From Coriobacteriia bacterium (GTDB lineage: Bacteria > Actinomycetota > Coriobacteriia > Anaerosomatales > Anaerosomataceae): a stretch of 64,000 bases of DNA. Below, piece by piece: positions 55,132 to 62,557 of this stretch. The notes beneath the pieces are model-generated. The model had not been told where the DNA came from and ran no database searches. It worked only from the letters and a program-made list of their open reading frames with translations. The DNA is taken from contig JAUSBY010000003.1 in assembly GCA_030651765.1 (NCBI GenBank), forward strand, positions 124,001-188,000. The letters are read 5' to 3'. A program made the translations under genes and the position numbers. Position 1 is the first letter of the stretch; every line of letters starts with the position of its first letter.

Positions 55132-56043
55132 CTACTTGCCCGAGAGCTGGCGGAGCGTCATAGACACAAGCTTGATGAAGTCGGCGAAGAACTGCTCGAA
55201 CGATCCGATCTCATCGGTGGTGCCGTCGGGCTCGTACTCGGCATCGAAGTCGCCGCCGGCGACCCGCATCGAGATGTCCTGGATGCTCACGGTCATGCGG
55301 CGAAGCCGCTTGAGGACGAGCAGGTCCATCAGTGCGCCGATGGTGAGCGTCGCTACGACCAAGGTGATGGTGACGACCATGAGCGTCTGCAGCATCGCGC
55401 TGTTGGCTGCGTCGGCCTGCTCGGTGATGTCCTCGATGGCGTAGATGACGCCGACGGGATCGGCGCCCCCGGCGTACGCGGGGAAGACCGCGTGACCCTT
55501 GCTGCTCCGGTCGGTGCTCCAGCGGACGACCCAGTAGTCACCCTCACCGGTCACGCCGTCGTGGCAGGTCTGCGTGCAGGAGCCTACCTCGACGCCGACG
55601 ATGCGACCGTTCTCCGGTACCTGCTCGGGCGAGATGCCGAACTGCATGTCGTCGGCGAGTGCCTCATCGGTCGTGGTCAGCAGACCGTAGTTGTCGCGCT
55701 CGGCCCATGTGGGCGGCAGGCCGAGGGACTCGCGCGCGGTCGCGAACGTCGCCTCGTCGGTGATGTTCTTGTCAATCAGGAGCGCGTAGTCCGCCCCCGT
55801 GACCGACTTCATGCCCTCGAGGATGCGCGCGGCTTCCTGCGGATTCGCGATCGGGTCGAGGGCCGTGTCGGGTCCCTTGATCTGCTCCCACGCAGCAACA
55901 CCCTGGGAGCCGGTGCGGGCCACCGTCGTGTCGAGGCCGCGCGAGTACGACTGGTGCAGGTACACCACAACGGCCACCGCACCGATGAGGTTGATGGCCA
56001 CCACACCTGCCAGGATGCGCGTTCGTATCGAGAGGTTCTTCAT
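55132..56043 (-). CDS. Two-helix membrane sensor-like protein with CX3CH motif and HAMP-like segment
   Basis: 303 residues: TM1 about 10-28, an extracytoplasmic domain 30-215, TM2 about 217-243, then a HAMP-like cytoplasmic segment (LKRLRRMTVSIQDISMRVAGGDF) and nothing further, so no kinase or methyl-accepting domain follows. The outer domain has Cys156-Thr-Gln-Thr-Cys160-His161, a CX3CH motif that could hold haem c, and a region resembling the Tll0287-like/DUF3365 fold (ADYALLIDKNITD, PVGVIYAIEDITEQ). It starts 4 bases from the cytochrome stop, so it is expected to act with that protein. Function unknown; a haem-based sensor or cytochrome partner is the best guess. Confidence 0.75.
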   Translation of the reverse strand: MKNLSIRTRILAGVVAINLIGAVAVVVYLHQSYSRGLDTTVARTGSQGVAAWEQIKGPDTALDPIANPQEAARILEGMKSVTGADYALLIDKNITDEATFATARESLGLPPTWAERDNYGLLTTTDEALADDMQFGISPEQVPENGRIVGVEVGSCTQTCHDGVTGEGDYWVVRWSTDRSSKGHAVFPAYAGGADPVGVIYAIEDITEQADAANSAMLQTLMVVTITLVVATLTIGALMDLLVLKRLRRMTVSIQDISMRVAGGDFDAEYEPDGTTDEIGSFEQFFADFIKLVSMTLRQLSGK

Positions 56044-56047
56044 GCGT

Positions 56048-58807
56048 TCACTCGCCCCCTTGCTCGTCGTTCATGTCGGTCATGCCGTCTTGTGGTACCT
56101 CTTCGTCAACGTGGCCCAGCGTATGGCAGCTGAGGCAGGCCACGGTAGCACCCTCGTCGATCATGTGCGCAGATGTCGGCTCGTCTGCCGCCTCAGCGGA
56201 GACTGCGGCCGTGGAGACCGTCGGCTCCTCTGCCGGTTCGGCCATCGGCACAGGCTCGTCTGCGATCCCGGCGTCGCCCGTGGGCTCCGCGTCCGACGCG
56301 GGCGGCTCCGGCACGGCCACAGAGAGTGCACTGTGCCGCGCCCGCCACGCCGTCGAGCCCGGCTCCGGCAGCGTGCAGGTCGTCTCGGGAGGCGGGGCGT
56401 GGCACGAGCCGGGCGTGCCCTCAGGTCCGCCGCAGGTCATGGTCCCGTCAGAACCATGACAGCCGGGGATCGCGCACCCGATCGGGTAGTGCAGGTCGTA
56501 GACGGACGCGGTCGGGTGACAGCCGCCGCGTGCGCACGAGCCCGGGATCGGATCTCCGGTCAGCAGATCGAGCTCGACGCCGATGTGTCGTTCAGAGAGG
56601 TCCTGGTGCGTCGTGCTTGCGGTGTGGCAGGCTCCTTCTGCGGTGTCCGGACCTCCGCACGTCACGGAGCTGCCGGGCTCGTCTCCTGAGTGGCAGCCGT
56701 CGATGGTGCAGCCGACCGCGTAGTGCACTTCATCGACAGACGCGGTCGGGTGGCATCCTGCCCGGGCGCATGCACCGGCGAGCGGCTCGCCCGAGAGGCG
56801 GTCCAGCTCGATACCGGCGTGCGCGGTGGCAAAGCCCGCATGCGTGTCGATCGTCGTGTGGCATGCGCCGGCAGGCCCGTCCGGTCCGCCGCAGCTGACG
56901 TTGCCCGAGGGGCCGACACCGTCATGGCAGCCGTCGATCGTGCAGCCCACGTCTGCGTGCAACTCGTCGAGCGCCACGCTTGGGTGGCAGCCTGCGATCA
57001 CGCATGAACCGGGAGCGGGTTGTCCGCTCAGCCACTCGAGTTCGACGCCGGTGTGTCTGGCCGAGAGGTCGAGATGGGCCTCGGCGGCCGTGTGACATGC
57101 GCCGGTGGCGCCGTCCGGTCCACCGCAGCTCACGATGCCCGAGGGGCCGCCTGCTACGTGACAGCCGGTGATCGCGCAGCCGACGTCGTGATGCAGTTCG
57201 TAGACCGAGACCGTCGGATGGCAACCGGGAGTCACGCAGGAGCCGGGCGTTGGCTCGCCCGTGAGGCGATCCAGCTCGACGCCCGTGTGCTTCGCGTAGA
57301 AGTTCCGGTGCTTGTCGGCACCCACATGGCATGCGCCGGGCGTACCTTCGGGTCCGCCGCAGCTCATCGGCCCCGTGCCGCTGATGCTGCCCGTTCGGCT
57401 GTGGCATCCGGCGAGCATGCAGCCCTTGGAGCTGTGGACGCCGCGCACGTCTGTGGTGTCGTGGCAGCCAGCCGTCACGCACGAACCCTCGACGGGCTCG
57501 CCGGTCAACCGGTCGAGCTCCGCCGCCATGTGGACGGAGTCCATGGCGCCGTGGCGCTCGTCGCCGTGGCATGCCTCACAAGCACCCGCACTCTCGCGCT
57601 CGGTCCATGATGCCTTCACGACCGCGGCCGTGCTCTCGTTGGCGTTGTGGCACCCGAGGCACGAGTCGGCACCAAGCGCTGACCCCGGACGCGTGTGCTC
57701 GTCGCCGATGTCCATCGAGTGGCACACCGCGCACGTCAGGGTGACGCCGCTTGCCGGGTCGGTGAGTGTGGACGCGCCCTGGCGTCCGTTGGCCGCCGAG
57801 TGGACCTCACCATCTTTCTCGTGGCTGTACTCGGTGTTCAGATAGGCGGGGTGGCAGGTGTTCTCACCGGTGCCGCACGCGTTCTGCGTCGGCCTCGGCG
57901 CCTGGACGGTGAGATCGTGGCAGCCGGGCTCGCCTTCTTCAGCCGAGCCGGAACACGTCGCGGGTGCGTTGGGGTGCAGCGCGTGGAGCTTGTTGCCCGC
58001 ATGGCACCCGATGCCTGTGTCGCCGCAACCTGCGGTCCCACTGCCCTCGACAGAGGCCGGCGCAAAGTCGGCCGCATGCATCGGCGCCCGGACGTCCTCG
58101 CCGTGGCAGTCCTCGCAGCGATGGGACTCCCAGTCGGTCTTGACCTGCTCGAGCGCGCCGCTCTGCACGTCGTTGTGGCACTCCGCGCACCCGACATCGG
58201 TACCGTAGTCACTCCCGTCGACCTCCGGGACGCCGGTATGCGCCGCTTTGAGATCGCGGGAATGGCAGTCACCGCAGGTCGCCTTCGCTTCGCCGCCCTC
58301 GGCAGTCCGCATGATGGCGGTCATGTCGGTACCCATGGCGGTGTGGAGCGACTCGCGATAGTGACCCTGGGGATACGGGTCGGAGAGGCGCACGCAGTCG
58401 GACACGCCCTCCATCGTCCCATCGTGGCACCCCGTGCACTCGCGCTGGCTCGGCCCGTGGCACGGGATGCAGCCGACGCCCGTGTACTCGTGGCAGGTCT
58501 TGCAGGCGGTCTCGGGGTGGTAGGCGTTGAAGTCCCGGCGGTGCTCGTCGGATCCGTGGCAGCCATCACCGGAGTTGGTGCATCCGCTCTCGCGGTGTGC
58601 GTTGTAGTCGCTTGCCTCGGTGAAGCTGTGAACCTTGGTGGTGGGCGGATTCCATCCGGCGGCGAAGGCGACGCCTGCGACGATGATGAAGGCGAGTGCG
58701 ATCCGGCTTCTGTGTACTTTCAGACGCTGGAGCGCGGAGACCGCCCCTCCACGTGCCGGACCTGCTGCCCGCGTGGTGGCAGCATCATGTGAGTAACCGC
58801 CCCGCAT
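56048..58807 (-). CDS. Large membrane-anchored multihaem c-type cytochrome with unusual CX4CH and CX9CH repeats
   Basis: 919 residues. A single N-terminal helix (about 36-51, ALAFIIVAGVAFAAG) anchors it outside the membrane. I count 29 C-x(n)-CH motifs: ten CXXCH (at Cys102, 113, 124, 178, 207, 231, 359, 383, 410, 891), ten CX4CH (443, 463, 524, 544, 602, 622, 680, 700, 758, 778), five CX9CH (483, 561, 639, 717, 792), three CX6CH (76, 261, 311), and one CX10CH (285). CXXCH binds haem c; CX4CH is known in some cytochromes; the longer spacings are unusual. Residues 430-805 are five repeats. A Pro/Glu/Ala linker precedes the last CXXCH. Likely role: extracellular electron transfer. Middle gene of a three-gene unit. 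Confidence 0.9.
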   Translation of the reverse strand: MRGGYSHDAATTRAAGPARGGAVSALQRLKVHRSRIALAFIIVAGVAFAAGWNPPTTKVHSFTEASDYNAHRESGCTNSGDGCHGSDEHRRDFNAYHPETACKTCHEYTGVGCIPCHGPSQRECTGCHDGTMEGVSDCVRLSDPYPQGHYRESLHTAMGTDMTAIMRTAEGGEAKATCGDCHSRDLKAAHTGVPEVDGSDYGTDVGCAECHNDVQSGALEQVKTDWESHRCEDCHGEDVRAPMHAADFAPASVEGSGTAGCGDTGIGCHAGNKLHALHPNAPATCSGSAEEGEPGCHDLTVQAPRPTQNACGTGENTCHPAYLNTEYSHEKDGEVHSAANGRQGASTLTDPASGVTLTCAVCHSMDIGDEHTRPGSALGADSCLGCHNANESTAAVVKASWTERESAGACEACHGDERHGAMDSVHMAAELDRLTGEPVEGSCVTAGCHDTTDVRGVHSSKGCMLAGCHSRTGSISGTGPMSCGGPEGTPGACHVGADKHRNFYAKHTGVELDRLTGEPTPGSCVTPGCHPTVSVYELHHDVGCAITGCHVAGGPSGIVSCGGPDGATGACHTAAEAHLDLSARHTGVELEWLSGQPAPGSCVIAGCHPSVALDELHADVGCTIDGCHDGVGPSGNVSCGGPDGPAGACHTTIDTHAGFATAHAGIELDRLSGEPLAGACARAGCHPTASVDEVHYAVGCTIDGCHSGDEPGSSVTCGGPDTAEGACHTASTTHQDLSERHIGVELDLLTGDPIPGSCARGGCHPTASVYDLHYPIGCAIPGCHGSDGTMTCGGPEGTPGSCHAPPPETTCTLPEPGSTAWRARHSALSVAVPEPPASDAEPTGDAGIADEPVPMAEPAEEPTVSTAAVSAEAADEPTSAHMIDEGATVACLSCHTLGHVDEEVPQDGMTDMNDEQGGE
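56393..57520 (-). repeat. Five tandem 78-81-residue repeats inside the cytochrome
   Basis: Repeat units begin ELDRLTGEP-like at residues 430, 511, 589, 667 and 745 (periods 81, 78, 78, 78). Each unit holds CX4CH, about 14 residues later another CX4CH, then a CGGP...ACH (CX9CH) and a histidine pair before the next unit. The DNA copies have diverged, so the repeat is old and probably maintained by selection on the protein. Confidence 0.9.
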
Positions 58808-58831: not shown

Positions 58832-59035
58832 TCAGTCGAGGCGAAGACCGAGCACCTCGGAGGCCGCTTCCTTCAGAGCCTGGACCTTCTCGGGCTCATC
58901 CGGATCGTCCGGCCGGACAAGGGTGACGATGAAGCCGACGCGCATAGCTATCGCTCCCCGCGACTTGAACACATCGAGGTTGTTGCGCTGGATATGCTCC
59001 TCGATGCGCTGCGCGTAGTCGTACAGCTTCCCCAT
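58832..59035 (-). CDS. Small conserved-looking protein, first gene of the cytochrome operon
   Basis: 67 residues, MGKLYDYAQRIEEHIQRNNL at the start and ending EVLGLRLD; no family recognised. It is mixed alpha/beta in appearance, with a beta-like AIAMRVGFIVTLVRP centre and an acidic DDPDEPEK stretch. ATG at 59035 is strongly supported by GGAGG 9 bases upstream. The stop is 24 bases before the cytochrome start, so they are very likely co-transcribed. No Cys or membrane segment, so it is probably a cytosolic accessory or regulatory protein. Confidence 0.72.
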   Translation of the reverse strand: MGKLYDYAQRIEEHIQRNNLDVFKSRGAIAMRVGFIVTLVRPDDPDEPEKVQALKEAASEVLGLRLD

Positions 59036-59245
59036 GAAGCCACACCTCCAAGGGCCGGATATCTTCTGATTCGGCATAATGCGGACCGCGGTTTAGCGCT
59101 GGCTGGTCTGAATCGTGAGTCCCCGGATCTTTGTCGCCCCCAGCGGTTACATAATCGTGCAAAAACCTCGATATGGCCACCTCGGTCCCGCGCCGGGCGC
59201 GCTGTTCGCCGCGCGCCACGGGACCGGCCGTGCTACGGTTCGTGC

Positions 59246-61447
59246 ATGACGACGACCCACCGATATGCCGCCACCTGCCCCCGGGGCGTCGAGCCCCTGC
59301 TCGCCAGTGAGATCACGCAACTCGGCGCCGGCGAGGTGCGTGAGCAGCGAGCTGTCGTCACGTTCTCCGGACCGCTTGAGACCGGCTATCGTGTGTGCCT
59401 GTGGTCGCGCATCGCGAGCCGGGTGCTGCTCACGTTGGCCGAGTTCCCTGCGGCGAGTGCCGAGGCACTCTACGAAGGCGTCGCGACGATCGCCTGGGAG
59501 GAGCACATCCCGCCCGAGGGAACGCTTGCCATCGATGTGGTCGGGTCCACGAGCGGTCTGACCCACTCGCGCTTCGCCGCCCAGAAGGCGAAGGACGCGG
59601 TGGTCGACCGGATACGCACGGTGAGCGGCACACGTCCATCGGTCGCCTTCGAGCGTCCCGACGTGCGCCTGAACCTTCGGCTTCACAACGAGCGGGCGAC
59701 GCTCTCGATCGACCTGGCCGGCGAGCCGCTCCATATGCGCGGCTACCGCACGGCCGGCGAGCAGGCCGAGGCGCCGCTCAAGGAGAACCTTGCGGCAGCG
59801 GTGCTCGTCCGCGCGGGCTGGCCGGAGATCGCCGCGGCCGGCGGCGCGCTCGTCGACCCGATGTGTGGGTCCGGGACGCTGCTCGTCGAGGGGGCGCTCA
59901 TCGCGGCCGACCAGGCCCCCGGTCTGCTCCGGGAGTACTGGGGCTTCACCGGGTGGCTCGGCCATGACGAGGACGTCTGGCACACACTGCTCGACGAGGC
60001 CGACGAGCGTGCCGAGAGCGGTCGAGACGCCGTACCGCCGATCATCGGAGCCGATCACGATCCGCGGGCCGTGAGCCTTGCGGCCGCGTGCGCGAGGCGA
60101 GCCGGTTTCGGCGGACGCATCACCGTCGAGGTCGGGGAGCTCGTCGCGCTCACGTCGCCGCCCGACAGCCGCCCGGGGCTCGTCGTCACGAACCCTCCGT
60201 ACGGTGTCCGGCTCGGCGAGACGACCGACCTGGCCGCGCTGTACGCACTCCTCGGCGAGCGGCTGGTCTCCGGCTTCGAGGGCTGGACCGCAGCGGTGCT
60301 CACATCCGACGAGTCGCTCGCGCGGGCGACGGGACTGCGGAGCAGCGCCGCCCACACGCTCTACAACGGCGCGATAGAGACGAAGCTCTACCGGTTCGAC
60401 GTGTCCGCCTCGGCGGTGCGTGCCGAGGTGCGCCGCGCGCCGGAGCCGCGCTCGGCCGGTGCCGAGATGTTCGCCAACCGCCTGCGCAAGAACGTGCGCC
60501 ACATCGGCAAGTGGGCGCGGCGCGAGGGCGTGACGTGCTACCGCGTCTACGACGCCGACCTGCCCGAGTACGCGGTGGCGGTCGATCTGTATCAGGGCGC
60601 GGGGCCTGACGAGGGCATGCGGTTCGCGCATGTGGCCGAGTATGCACCGCCTGCGACGATCGACCCGGCCGTCGCGGAGACGCGTCTGGCCGAGGCGGTC
60701 GAAGTGGTAGCCGACGTACTCGAGGTGGCACCTGCCGACGTGGCGGTCAAGGTGCGCCGCCGCCAGCGCGGCACGTCGCAGTACGAGCGCGTGGCCGAGC
60801 GCGGGGAGTTCATCCAGATCGCCGAGGGTGGACTGCGCTTCCTCGCGAACCCCTACGATTACCTCGACACCGGCATCTTCCTCGACCACCGCCCGGTTCG
60901 CTCGATGGTGCGCGATCTGGCGGCGGGCACGCGCGCGCTCAACCTGTTCGCCTACACGGGCACGGTGAGCGTGTACGCGGTCGCCGGCGGGGCGATCGCC
61001 GTCAACACCGTGGACCTCTCGGCCACCTATCTGGACTGGGCGCAGCAGAATATGGCGCTCAACGGACTGGCCGACAGTCCCGGCGTCCGCTTCATGCGCT
61101 CGAACGCGATCACGTGGCTTGCCGAGGAGCGCCGGCGCGTGGAGGCGGGGCTGGCGGACCCGTATGGGCTCGTCTTCTGCGACCCGCCGACGTTCTCGGC
61201 AAGTAAGAAGATGGGGACGCAGACGTTCGACGTGCAGCGCGACCACGTGCAGCTCATCACCGATGCCGCGGCGGTGCTCGCCGACGACGGAGTGCTGCTG
61301 TTCTCCACCAACCTGCGGTCCTTCAAGCTTGATGCCGCAGCGCTCGGCGGGCTCGACGTGGAAGACATCACCGCCGAGACCATCCCGCCGGACTTCTCCC
61401 GTACGCCCAGGATCCACTCCTGTTTCGTGGTGCGGCGGCGCTCCTAG
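59246..61447 (+). CDS. rlmL: Bifunctional 23S rRNA methyltransferase RlmKL
   Basis: A 733-residue fusion of THUMP-linked m2G2445 and m7G2069 methyltransferases. The N-terminal half has a ferredoxin-like/THUMP region, then VDPMCGSGTLLVEGALIA and the catalytic VVTNPPYGVRLGE. The C-terminal half has TGIFLDHRPVRSMVRDLA, LNLFAYTGTVSVYA and LVFCDPPTFSASKKM. Both SAM sites are intact. The ATG at 59246 lacks a clear ribosome-binding site, so a leaderless transcript is possible. The fusion is best known from gammaproteobacteria. It ends on the CTAG shared with the convergent ferredoxin gene. Confidence 0.94.
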   Translation: MTTTHRYAATCPRGVEPLLASEITQLGAGEVREQRAVVTFSGPLETGYRVCLWSRIASRVLLTLAEFPAASAEALYEGVATIAWEEHIPPEGTLAIDVVGSTSGLTHSRFAAQKAKDAVVDRIRTVSGTRPSVAFERPDVRLNLRLHNERATLSIDLAGEPLHMRGYRTAGEQAEAPLKENLAAAVLVRAGWPEIAAAGGALVDPMCGSGTLLVEGALIAADQAPGLLREYWGFTGWLGHDEDVWHTLLDEADERAESGRDAVPPIIGADHDPRAVSLAAACARRAGFGGRITVEVGELVALTSPPDSRPGLVVTNPPYGVRLGETTDLAALYALLGERLVSGFEGWTAAVLTSDESLARATGLRSSAAHTLYNGAIETKLYRFDVSASAVRAEVRRAPEPRSAGAEMFANRLRKNVRHIGKWARREGVTCYRVYDADLPEYAVAVDLYQGAGPDEGMRFAHVAEYAPPATIDPAVAETRLAEAVEVVADVLEVAPADVAVKVRRRQRGTSQYERVAERGEFIQIAEGGLRFLANPYDYLDTGIFLDHRPVRSMVRDLAAGTRALNLFAYTGTVSVYAVAGGAIAVNTVDLSATYLDWAQQNMALNGLADSPGVRFMRSNAITWLAEERRRVEAGLADPYGLVFCDPPTFSASKKMGTQTFDVQRDHVQLITDAAAVLADDGVLLFSTNLRSFKLDAAALGGLDVEDITAETIPPDFSRTPRIHSCFVVRRRS

Positions 61448-62448
61448 AACATCGGCGTGGTCTGCTCCAGCAGTCCCGAGTTGATGACCTGCCGGAAGAC
61501 GTCTGCGGGGATCGCTGTGTCCCAGTTGCCCGTGAACTTGGCCACCGCGTAGATGCCGAGCCATAGGCCCACCACCGCAAGTGGCCACACCCACGGCGCG
61601 ATCCGCACGCGTCGGACAACCTTCGCCTCGAGGCACCCGTCCACCGGGCAGACCTTCACGCAGTCCATGCAGCCGTCGCACTCGGGCGCGCGCACCACGC
61701 CTGCGCGCTGTACGTCCACGAACGCGTGGCAGATCTTCGAGCACCTCCCGCACTCGATGCAGCTCTCATCGTCACGCTCGACCGCGCACGGCGAGGCGAG
61801 CCCGACCGCCGAATACAGCGCTCCGAGCGGACACAGGTACCGGCACCACACCGGGCCGAGCAGCATCGAGACGACGAAGACGAGCAACGCCACCGCGATG
61901 AACGCCGGGTTGCCGAATCCCTCGATGATCTTGATGTCGGCCACCCACATGTACGGGAACTCGCGAAAGCCGACCGCCTCGGCGAGCGACACCATGCCCA
62001 CGAACGCGAAGAACGCGAGCCCGATGAGATAGCGCAGTCCCATCCCGGTGCGGTCGAGCCACTTCGGTGGGCGGATGTTGCGGCCGATCAGGCGTCTGCC
62101 GAGTGCGGCGGCGGCCTCCCACACGGTGCCCACCGGACAGATCCAACCGCAGAAGCCGCGCTTGAGCACGAGCGAGGTCGCGAGCGCCGCGAGGATGATC
62201 ACGAGGCCGGCGGGCAGGAGCGTGTCCCAGCCGCCGCCTTTGAGCCACGCGAAGAAGCTCGTGAAGTGGCCGACCGGCAGGATGCCGGCGACCGCCTCCG
62301 GCCTCGGCACGAACGGTCCCTCGCCGCGAGCCCACGCGGCAAACGCGAGGAGGCGGGTCGCAAGCCAGACGAAGAACGCGAGGAAGGCGCCCTTGACGAA
62401 CCAGCGCGAGGTGATGACGTCGAGCACACGTAGCAGCGGACCGGGCAT
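61444..62448 (-). CDS. NapH/RdxA-like polyferredoxin membrane protein
   Basis: 334 residues with about five helices and an electron-transfer core. Membrane-proximal GFCGWICPVG and GPVWCRYLCPLGAL are the NapH/NosR/RdhC motif pair. Two 4Fe-4S clusters follow: Cys230, 233, 236, 240 (CIECGRCSKIC) and Cys257, 260, 263, 267 (CDGCMDCVKVCP). A final helix spans about 282-300. ATG at 62448 has GAGAGG 6 bases upstream. It could pass electrons from the quinone pool to a periplasmic acceptor such as a multihaem cytochrome, an attractive but unproven link to the operon 2.4 kb away. Confidence 0.9.
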   Translation of the reverse strand: MPGPLLRVLDVITSRWFVKGAFLAFFVWLATRLLAFAAWARGEGPFVPRPEAVAGILPVGHFTSFFAWLKGGGWDTLLPAGLVIILAALATSLVLKRGFCGWICPVGTVWEAAAALGRRLIGRNIRPPKWLDRTGMGLRYLIGLAFFAFVGMVSLAEAVGFREFPYMWVADIKIIEGFGNPAFIAVALLVFVVSMLLGPVWCRYLCPLGALYSAVGLASPCAVERDDESCIECGRCSKICHAFVDVQRAGVVRAPECDGCMDCVKVCPVDGCLEAKVVRRVRIAPWVWPLAVVGLWLGIYAVAKFTGNWDTAIPADVFRQVINSGLLEQTTPMF

Positions 62449-62557
62449 CGCGGACCTCTCGGTACGGGCCGGCGGGGAAGGGCCGACGGGTGCTGGAAAC
62501 ACAGCGATGGATTCTAGCACGGCGGAATCACTGCTAGCGTGCTCCGGCAAGGTCGCT

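Follow-up and report, generated by a model that had tools for sequence, protein, structure and literature searches.

Genome surveys count haems by the CXXCH motif, and sometimes by CX3CH and CX4CH as well (PMC5566968, PMC10734462). The DNA analysed here, a 64,000-nucleotide stretch of a Coriobacteriia genome (hereafter the window), carries a gene whose product has 29 C-x(n)-CH sites in which the two Cys are separated by anything from two to ten residues. It raises the question of how many haems such a protein would hold, and whether its expanded motifs are haem sites at all. An initial annotation of the window had left this as a choice between an unusually dense haem wire and a protein mixing haem with other metal sites.

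The window protein

The gene and the one hydrophobic segment of its product are located as follows.

56048..58807 (-), multihaem c-type cytochrome gene, as predicted: open reading frame with an ATG start, 919 aa, 29 C-x(n)-CH sites
58652..58711 (-), hydrophobic stretch near the N-terminus (residues 33-52), taken from its hydrophobicity and a reading of the sequence to be a signal anchor or signal peptide

The reading frame is intact, and a search of the whole source genome found a single intact copy. When the 29 CH dipeptides were sorted by the spacing to the preceding Cys we obtained ten X2, ten X4, five X9, three X6 and one X10, exactly the census given in the initial annotation. Nearly all Cys are accounted for by these motifs (58 of 60, the spare ones being C138 and C811), and 35 of the 64 His lie outside them. 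Shuffled sequences of the same composition (n = 2000) contained a mean of 4.2 and a maximum of 12 CH dipeptides, versus 29 in the protein itself. With 29 sites, ten of them CXXCH, the protein falls among c-type multihaem cytochromes as defined by two or more C-x(n)-CH motifs. It gave zero matches to Pfam and NCBIfam models, and no PDB chain was significantly similar to it by sequence profile.

The protein had also been described as membrane-anchored. Because it has a single hydrophobic segment, at residues 33-52, anchoring is plausible; a cleaved signal peptide would be the alternative. The sequence that follows the segment, WNPPT..VHSFT..SDY, is conserved.

The sites form an array of putative tri-haem modules

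Iterated profile searches resolved the window protein and its relatives into arrays of one putative tri-haem module with the order A...H...B...C, in which A, B and C are C-x(n)-CH sites. Nine modules, one inserted site and one C-terminal CXXCH make up the 29 sites of the window protein. Its modules are of four types, namely one X6/X2/X2 with an extra X2, two X2/X2/X2, one X6/X10/X6 and five X4/X4/X9.

58412..58588 (-), module 1, residues 74-132: X6, X2, X2, X2
58094..58285 (-), module 2, residues 175-238: X2, X2, X2, all canonical
57836..58033 (-), module 3, residues 259-324: X6, X10, X6, all non-canonical, conserved in orthologs
57554..57748 (-), module 4, residues 354-418: X2, X2, X2, all canonical
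57311..57481 (-), module 5, residues 443-499: X4, X4, X9, copy 1 of a tandem repeat (78-81 aa)
57077..57238 (-), module 6, residues 524-577: X4, X4, X9, repeat copy 2
56846..57004 (-), module 7, residues 602-654: X4, X4, X9, repeat copy 3
56606..56773 (-), module 8, residues 679-734: X4, X4, X9, repeat copy 4
56396..56539 (-), module 9, residues 757-804: X4, X4, X9, repeat copy 5
56123..56137 (-), lone C-terminal CXXCH, residues 891-895, preceded by a Pro/Glu/Ala-rich linker

Modules 5-9, the five repeats, are thus wholly non-canonical. When 42 copies of the X4/X4/X5-10 repeat were aligned, the columns that never varied were those of the six module Cys, the CH before them, the His and a single Gly.

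Over 300 modules, position A was X2 in 132, X6 in 85 and X4 in 61, position B was X2 in 195, X4 in 73 and X10 in 17, and position C was X2 in 157, with most of the others X4-X10. Each of the three positions is therefore CXXCH in some copies and CX4-CX13CH in others, and because the spacings vary in this way between X2 and longer, the canonical and expanded motifs are, as judged from the alignments, versions of the same site.

Expanded sites are conserved as strictly as CXXCH sites

Relatives were found in 18 of 398 genomes of the class, the source genome included, and all 18 belong to the same order; a phylum-wide sample of 396 genomes returned only the source genome's own protein and one marginal match. 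Fifteen orthologous loci were retrieved, together with several giant paralogs. The closest named record to the window protein comes from the Actinobacteria bacterium UBA2272 metagenome-assembled genome, and this near-identical protein was left out of the ortholog alignment, which comprised the window protein and 14 orthologs.

Conservation of the non-CXXCH Cys and His in homologs was the check that the initial annotation had proposed, and up to residue 493 these residues proved to be kept as strictly as those of CXXCH. Save for one loss, every site in this region, canonical or not, was retained in every ortholog covering it. The non-canonical sites retained alongside the CXXCH sites are CX6CH at 83 and 268, CX10CH at 296, CX4CH at 448 and 468, and CX9CH at 493; the CX6CH, CX10CH, CX4CH and CX9CH sites were found in 14 of 14 orthologs, except for 318 (13 of 14) and 493 (13 of 13). 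Spacing varied while the sites stayed: site 318, missing from one ortholog, is elsewhere X5, X6 or X7, 448 is X4 and once X8, 468 is X4 and once X2, and 493 is X8, X9 or X10. Over residues 56-420 mean conservation was 0.98 for Cys and 0.90 for His, versus 0.39-0.62 for the other residues sampled. Since the alignment past residue 493 mixes different repeat copies, spacing changes there were excluded as evidence.

Canonical and expanded spacings exchange in giant paralogs

The giant paralogs (L071, at G087:C40:8000-21593, and L047, L048, L049 and L051) have 2651 to at least 4305 residues and 68-108 C-x(n)-CH sites each, about one third to almost half of which are not CXXCH. In the largest relative, whose open frame runs to 4305 residues and is truncated at the 5' end by a contig edge, there are 108 CH dipeptides, exactly 216 Cys and 68 CXXCH motifs. 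Many relatives share a C-terminal tail, CxxCH...IPHxxxxPRLL..., which is present in L033, L035, L036, L040 and the giants; the window protein (56048-56390) and the UBA2272 protein are without it and end in the Pro/Glu/Ala-rich linker and one CXXCH.

Spacings were compared in a secure set of 14 giant-paralog copies, defined by an E-value of 7.5e-45 or better and a score of at least 90 bits over the first ~280 extracytoplasmic residues. The CX10CH site of the window protein is CX4CH in 11 of these copies and CXXCH in two, and the CXXCH site at 105 is CX4CH in 13 of the 14. Since the most distant modules depend on their Cys and His for alignment, a masked control was run in which every Cys and His was replaced by X in both profile and targets. 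The masked search still detected the copies (best E-value 9.8e-26), and C296, H297 and C311 landed on Cys, His and Cys in seven of seven rows. Some module 1 sites lost register, so the control is strongest for modules 2 and 3.

Stoichiometry, selection and copy number

Taking the family as a whole, a partner Cys stands upstream of 1061 of the 1064 CH dipeptides, and 62 of the 2187 Cys belong to no pair. In the window protein 29 candidate distal His remain for the 29 sites once five unconserved His and one of an adjacent pair are dropped, a count that depends on the choice of His dropped; for some of the His retained, in the repeats and tail, few orthologs or none provide coverage. One non-motif His per site fits bis-His ligation of the predicted haems.

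The five repeats of the window protein differ by 32-47% at the DNA level, and all motif Cys and His are kept. Between the window gene and that of UBA2272 the Cys and His codons show 12 synonymous and no non-synonymous changes, versus 60 and 25 in the other codons (Fisher p 0.03). The UBA2272 protein has 32 sites, versus 29, because of one extra repeat; to judge by this pair, haem number would change three at a time, by gain or loss of a module.

Maturation genes and alternative readings

The genes expected for maturation of a c-type multihaem cytochrome are present in the source genome, as a System I cluster, CcmE-CcmF-CcmA-CcmB-CcmC, in which the ORF between CcmA and CcmC was read as CcmB, and as the System II pair ResB-CcsA. 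This ResB-CcsA pair lies amid four ordinary, nearly all-CXXCH multihaem cytochromes and propeller-like proteins (L059, G000:C6:368000-387000).

The reading that we prefer, in which all 29 sites hold haem, has to be set against one in which the ten CXXCH bind haem c and the CX4-CX10CH motifs are disulfide-bonded or hold some other metal, zinc or non-haem iron for instance. This would suit the five repeats that are entirely non-canonical, and CX6CH, CX9CH and CX10CH do lie outside the spacings used by published haem counters (CX2-4CH; PMC5566968, PMC10734462). However, homologous positions are CXXCH or CX4-CX13CH in clear orthologs and in secure paralogs alike, the all-canonical and all-non-canonical triads are copies of one module, and the CH dipeptide and distal His are kept together; a mixed protein would need metal sites and haem sites to switch into one another with the Cys pair and CH unchanged. 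We rejected it because canonical and expanded motifs interchange at homologous sites, and regard it as improbable. Of the two readings first offered for this gene, the dense haem wire is the one favoured by site conservation and by interchange with CXXCH, and the mixture of haem with other metals found no support. It is also conceivable that a long loop holds the first Cys away from the vinyl group, leaving haem bound by a single thioether to the Cys of CH and the first Cys free or in a disulfide. Single-thioether c-haems do exist. Against this, a partner Cys precedes practically every CH dipeptide of the family (the 1061 of 1064 above), the conserved N-terminal sites never end up without their first Cys, and the OmcZ haem motif includes a Cys 15 residues upstream of the CH Cys (PMC9473688), all of which makes attachment through one thioether very improbable here. 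That the gene is decaying, or that its repeats arose by misassembly, would be a concern for a tandem region in a draft genome of 15 contigs, but the frame is intact, the gene, enlarged by one module, recurs in a separate assembly of the same genus, the repeats are 32-47% apart in DNA with every motif Cys and His in place, and Cys and His codons change synonymously only. We rejected a pseudogene or assembly artefact as barely credible, given the divergence of the repeats, the synonymous-only changes and the independent assembly, which by itself largely refutes it.

A different kind of objection concerns how the sites are loaded. Specialised lyases have been described for CX15CH haem motifs (PMC6976685, PMC7096707), and the long-spacing sites might likewise be matured only by a dedicated haem lyase, as is the CX15CH of Wolinella MccA. 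In keeping with this, CcsA-like genes adjoin five of the giant paralogs (L046 5690-6259, L047 842-1453, L048 104-697, L049 17907-18542 and L051 4666-5382). Ordinary Ccm genes, on the other hand, can make the CX4CH haems of Desulfovibrio cytochrome c3. Moreover, the genomes tested have 5-7 Cytochrom_C_asm genes each when they carry the family, versus 4-6 in relatives that lack it, and the surroundings of the window gene's orthologs yielded no homolog of CcsA, ResB or CcmC/E/F. Because gene numbers are similar with and without the family and none adjoins the orthologs, the matching dedicated lyases that the initial annotation had anticipated for the long spacings are not supported, and exclusive maturation by such an enzyme seems unlikely; a role for a particular lyase is conceivable given the CcsA-like genes beside the five giants.

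Neighbouring genes

Two genes flank the cytochrome gene closely.

55132..56043 (-), downstream gene, 303 aa: extracytoplasmic domain with CX3CH and a conserved His between hydrophobic segments, HAMP-like C-terminus, no output domain
58835..59077 (-), small conserved upstream ORF (MGKLYDYAQRIEEHI..., also MGKLYDYAQRIEEHIQRNNLDVFK...) with no family match, found upstream of the cytochrome in several relatives

In the 303-aa protein the CX3CH is invariant and the HAMP match is weak, and no Pfam domain was found over its extracytoplasmic part. In each of the 12 loci that could be checked its gene follows that of the cytochrome downstream; at two of them, L035 and L036, a further gene intervenes. 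The protein may be the redox partner or a sensor. A few genes from the cytochrome is a gene for a membrane 4Fe-4S protein with Fer4_5 domains (61444-62550, minus strand), which we take to be NapH/YccM-like and which is a possible electron donor.

A proposed 29-haem wire

Taken together, the evidence argues strongly that the window protein, whether anchored in the membrane or secreted, is a multihaem cytochrome c that holds about 29 covalent, mostly bis-His haems rather than ten, which would form a wire across the cell wall. The higher number would follow from the spacing of the haem-holding Cys in the repeated three-haem unit, 2-13 residues where the textbook has 2. We infer haem binding, bis-His ligation, function as a wire, the direction of electron flow and location in the cell wall. 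At each site the CH dipeptide would supply the second thioether and the proximal His, the distal His would belong to the site's own module or an adjacent one, and the first Cys would reach the haem from the far end of a loop of 2-13 residues, whose length could drift in evolution while the site stays. Lined up as a wire, at about 32 residues to each haem, the haems would carry electrons through the cell wall, linking the cytoplasmic membrane with the exterior, and the length of the wire would be tuned by gain or loss of whole three-haem modules. We assume that the cell's ordinary maturation machinery, System I and System II, attaches haem at every site.

The protein is most likely an electron conduit of the cell wall. 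At about 29 haems its mass per haem would be 3.2 kDa, which would place it in the "peptide-minimised" class of cytochromes (<5 kDa per haem), where every member with a known structure is an electron-transfer protein (PMC7096707). Isolates of the Anaerosomatales (OPB41) are described as having 17-18 multihaem cytochromes and as using Fe(III) or sulfur compounds as electron acceptors (PMC9686372); this physiology and the N-terminal hydrophobic segment suggest transfer through the cell wall. An AlphaFold model of the N-terminal 420-residue region from 15 sequences had a pLDDT of 35 and was unusable for haem geometry, and a model of the 115-residue repeat from 42 sequences (pLDDT 69) gave no Foldseek match.

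With less assurance, we lean towards a broader proposal, namely that the whole family consists of modular haem wires in which Cys spacing is nearly free (2-13) at every position, in which general maturation systems load all sites, and in which haem numbers reach 108 or more, about 1.6-3x the CXXCH count. Were the spacing this free at every module position, the CXXCH rule would fail for the clade; it detects 10 of 29 sites in the window protein and 68 of 108 in the largest relative. Should haem indeed be bound at these sites, c-haems can be attached across inter-Cys loops far longer than the textbook rule allows, and the maturation systems of cytochromes must be able to handle such loops. A natural mutant series for substrate recognition by haem lyases would be available in the homologous sites, whose loops measure 2, 4, 10 and 13 residues, and the 29 versus 32 sites in sister genomes would illustrate, through gain and loss of modules, how haem wires change length.

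Comparison with known systems

Single expanded motifs are known from other multihaem cytochromes. In OmcZ of Geobacter sulfurreducens a CX14CH motif, with its extra residues looped out, binds one haem (PMC9473688, PMC11208441), and the conservation of the expanded motifs in the window protein would fit putative haem sites of a comparable sort in a multihaem cytochrome. OmcZ, however, has one expanded motif among eight haems and polymerises, whereas 19 of the 29 sites here are expanded (spacings of 4, 6, 9 and 10) within a modular array, and neither a PDB sequence profile nor Foldseek with the moderate-confidence repeat model detected similarity to OmcZ. In the octahaem sulfite reductases MccA and SirA, too, a single haem sits in a very long motif (CX15CH or CX12NKGCH), but these proteins are catalytic, and their one special haem is served by a dedicated lyase; in place of eight haems, a CX15CH-type motif and a linked lyase gene, the window protein has 29 sites, many of them expanded, no X15 and no adjoining lyase gene. 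For the X9 and X10 spacings we know of no characterised precedent.

The Geobacter CxxxxCH...CXXCH domain PF09698 (GSu_C4xC__C2xCH) is a repeated domain of multihaem cytochromes that mixes CX4CH and CXXCH, as is seen here. The window module differs in being tri-haem and in its far wider spacings, and the PF09698 model scored 15.1 bits on the window protein, versus a cut-off of 21.7 (E 0.13), in an all-CXXCH stretch. Cytochrome_C7 (PF14522) and the MtrC/MtrF domain II/IV (PF22113) match a longer ortholog and a giant paralog, PF14522 above its curated score in one ortholog (39.9 bits) and one giant (60.8 bits); neither matches the window protein, and their spacings differ. Because of these matches the array would appear to be built on a general multihaem cytochrome plan. 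The large multihaem cytochromes of ANME archaea and Gram-positive iron reducers are likewise long haem wires, proposed to cross the S-layer or thick wall (PMC9012536); in the part of that account available to us they are described by CXXCH counts, and modules with comparable expanded motifs are not reported there. A multihaem cytochrome c is thus a known kind of protein, and what would be new here, as far as the alignments indicate, is that Cys spacing is free to vary at homologous haem sites.
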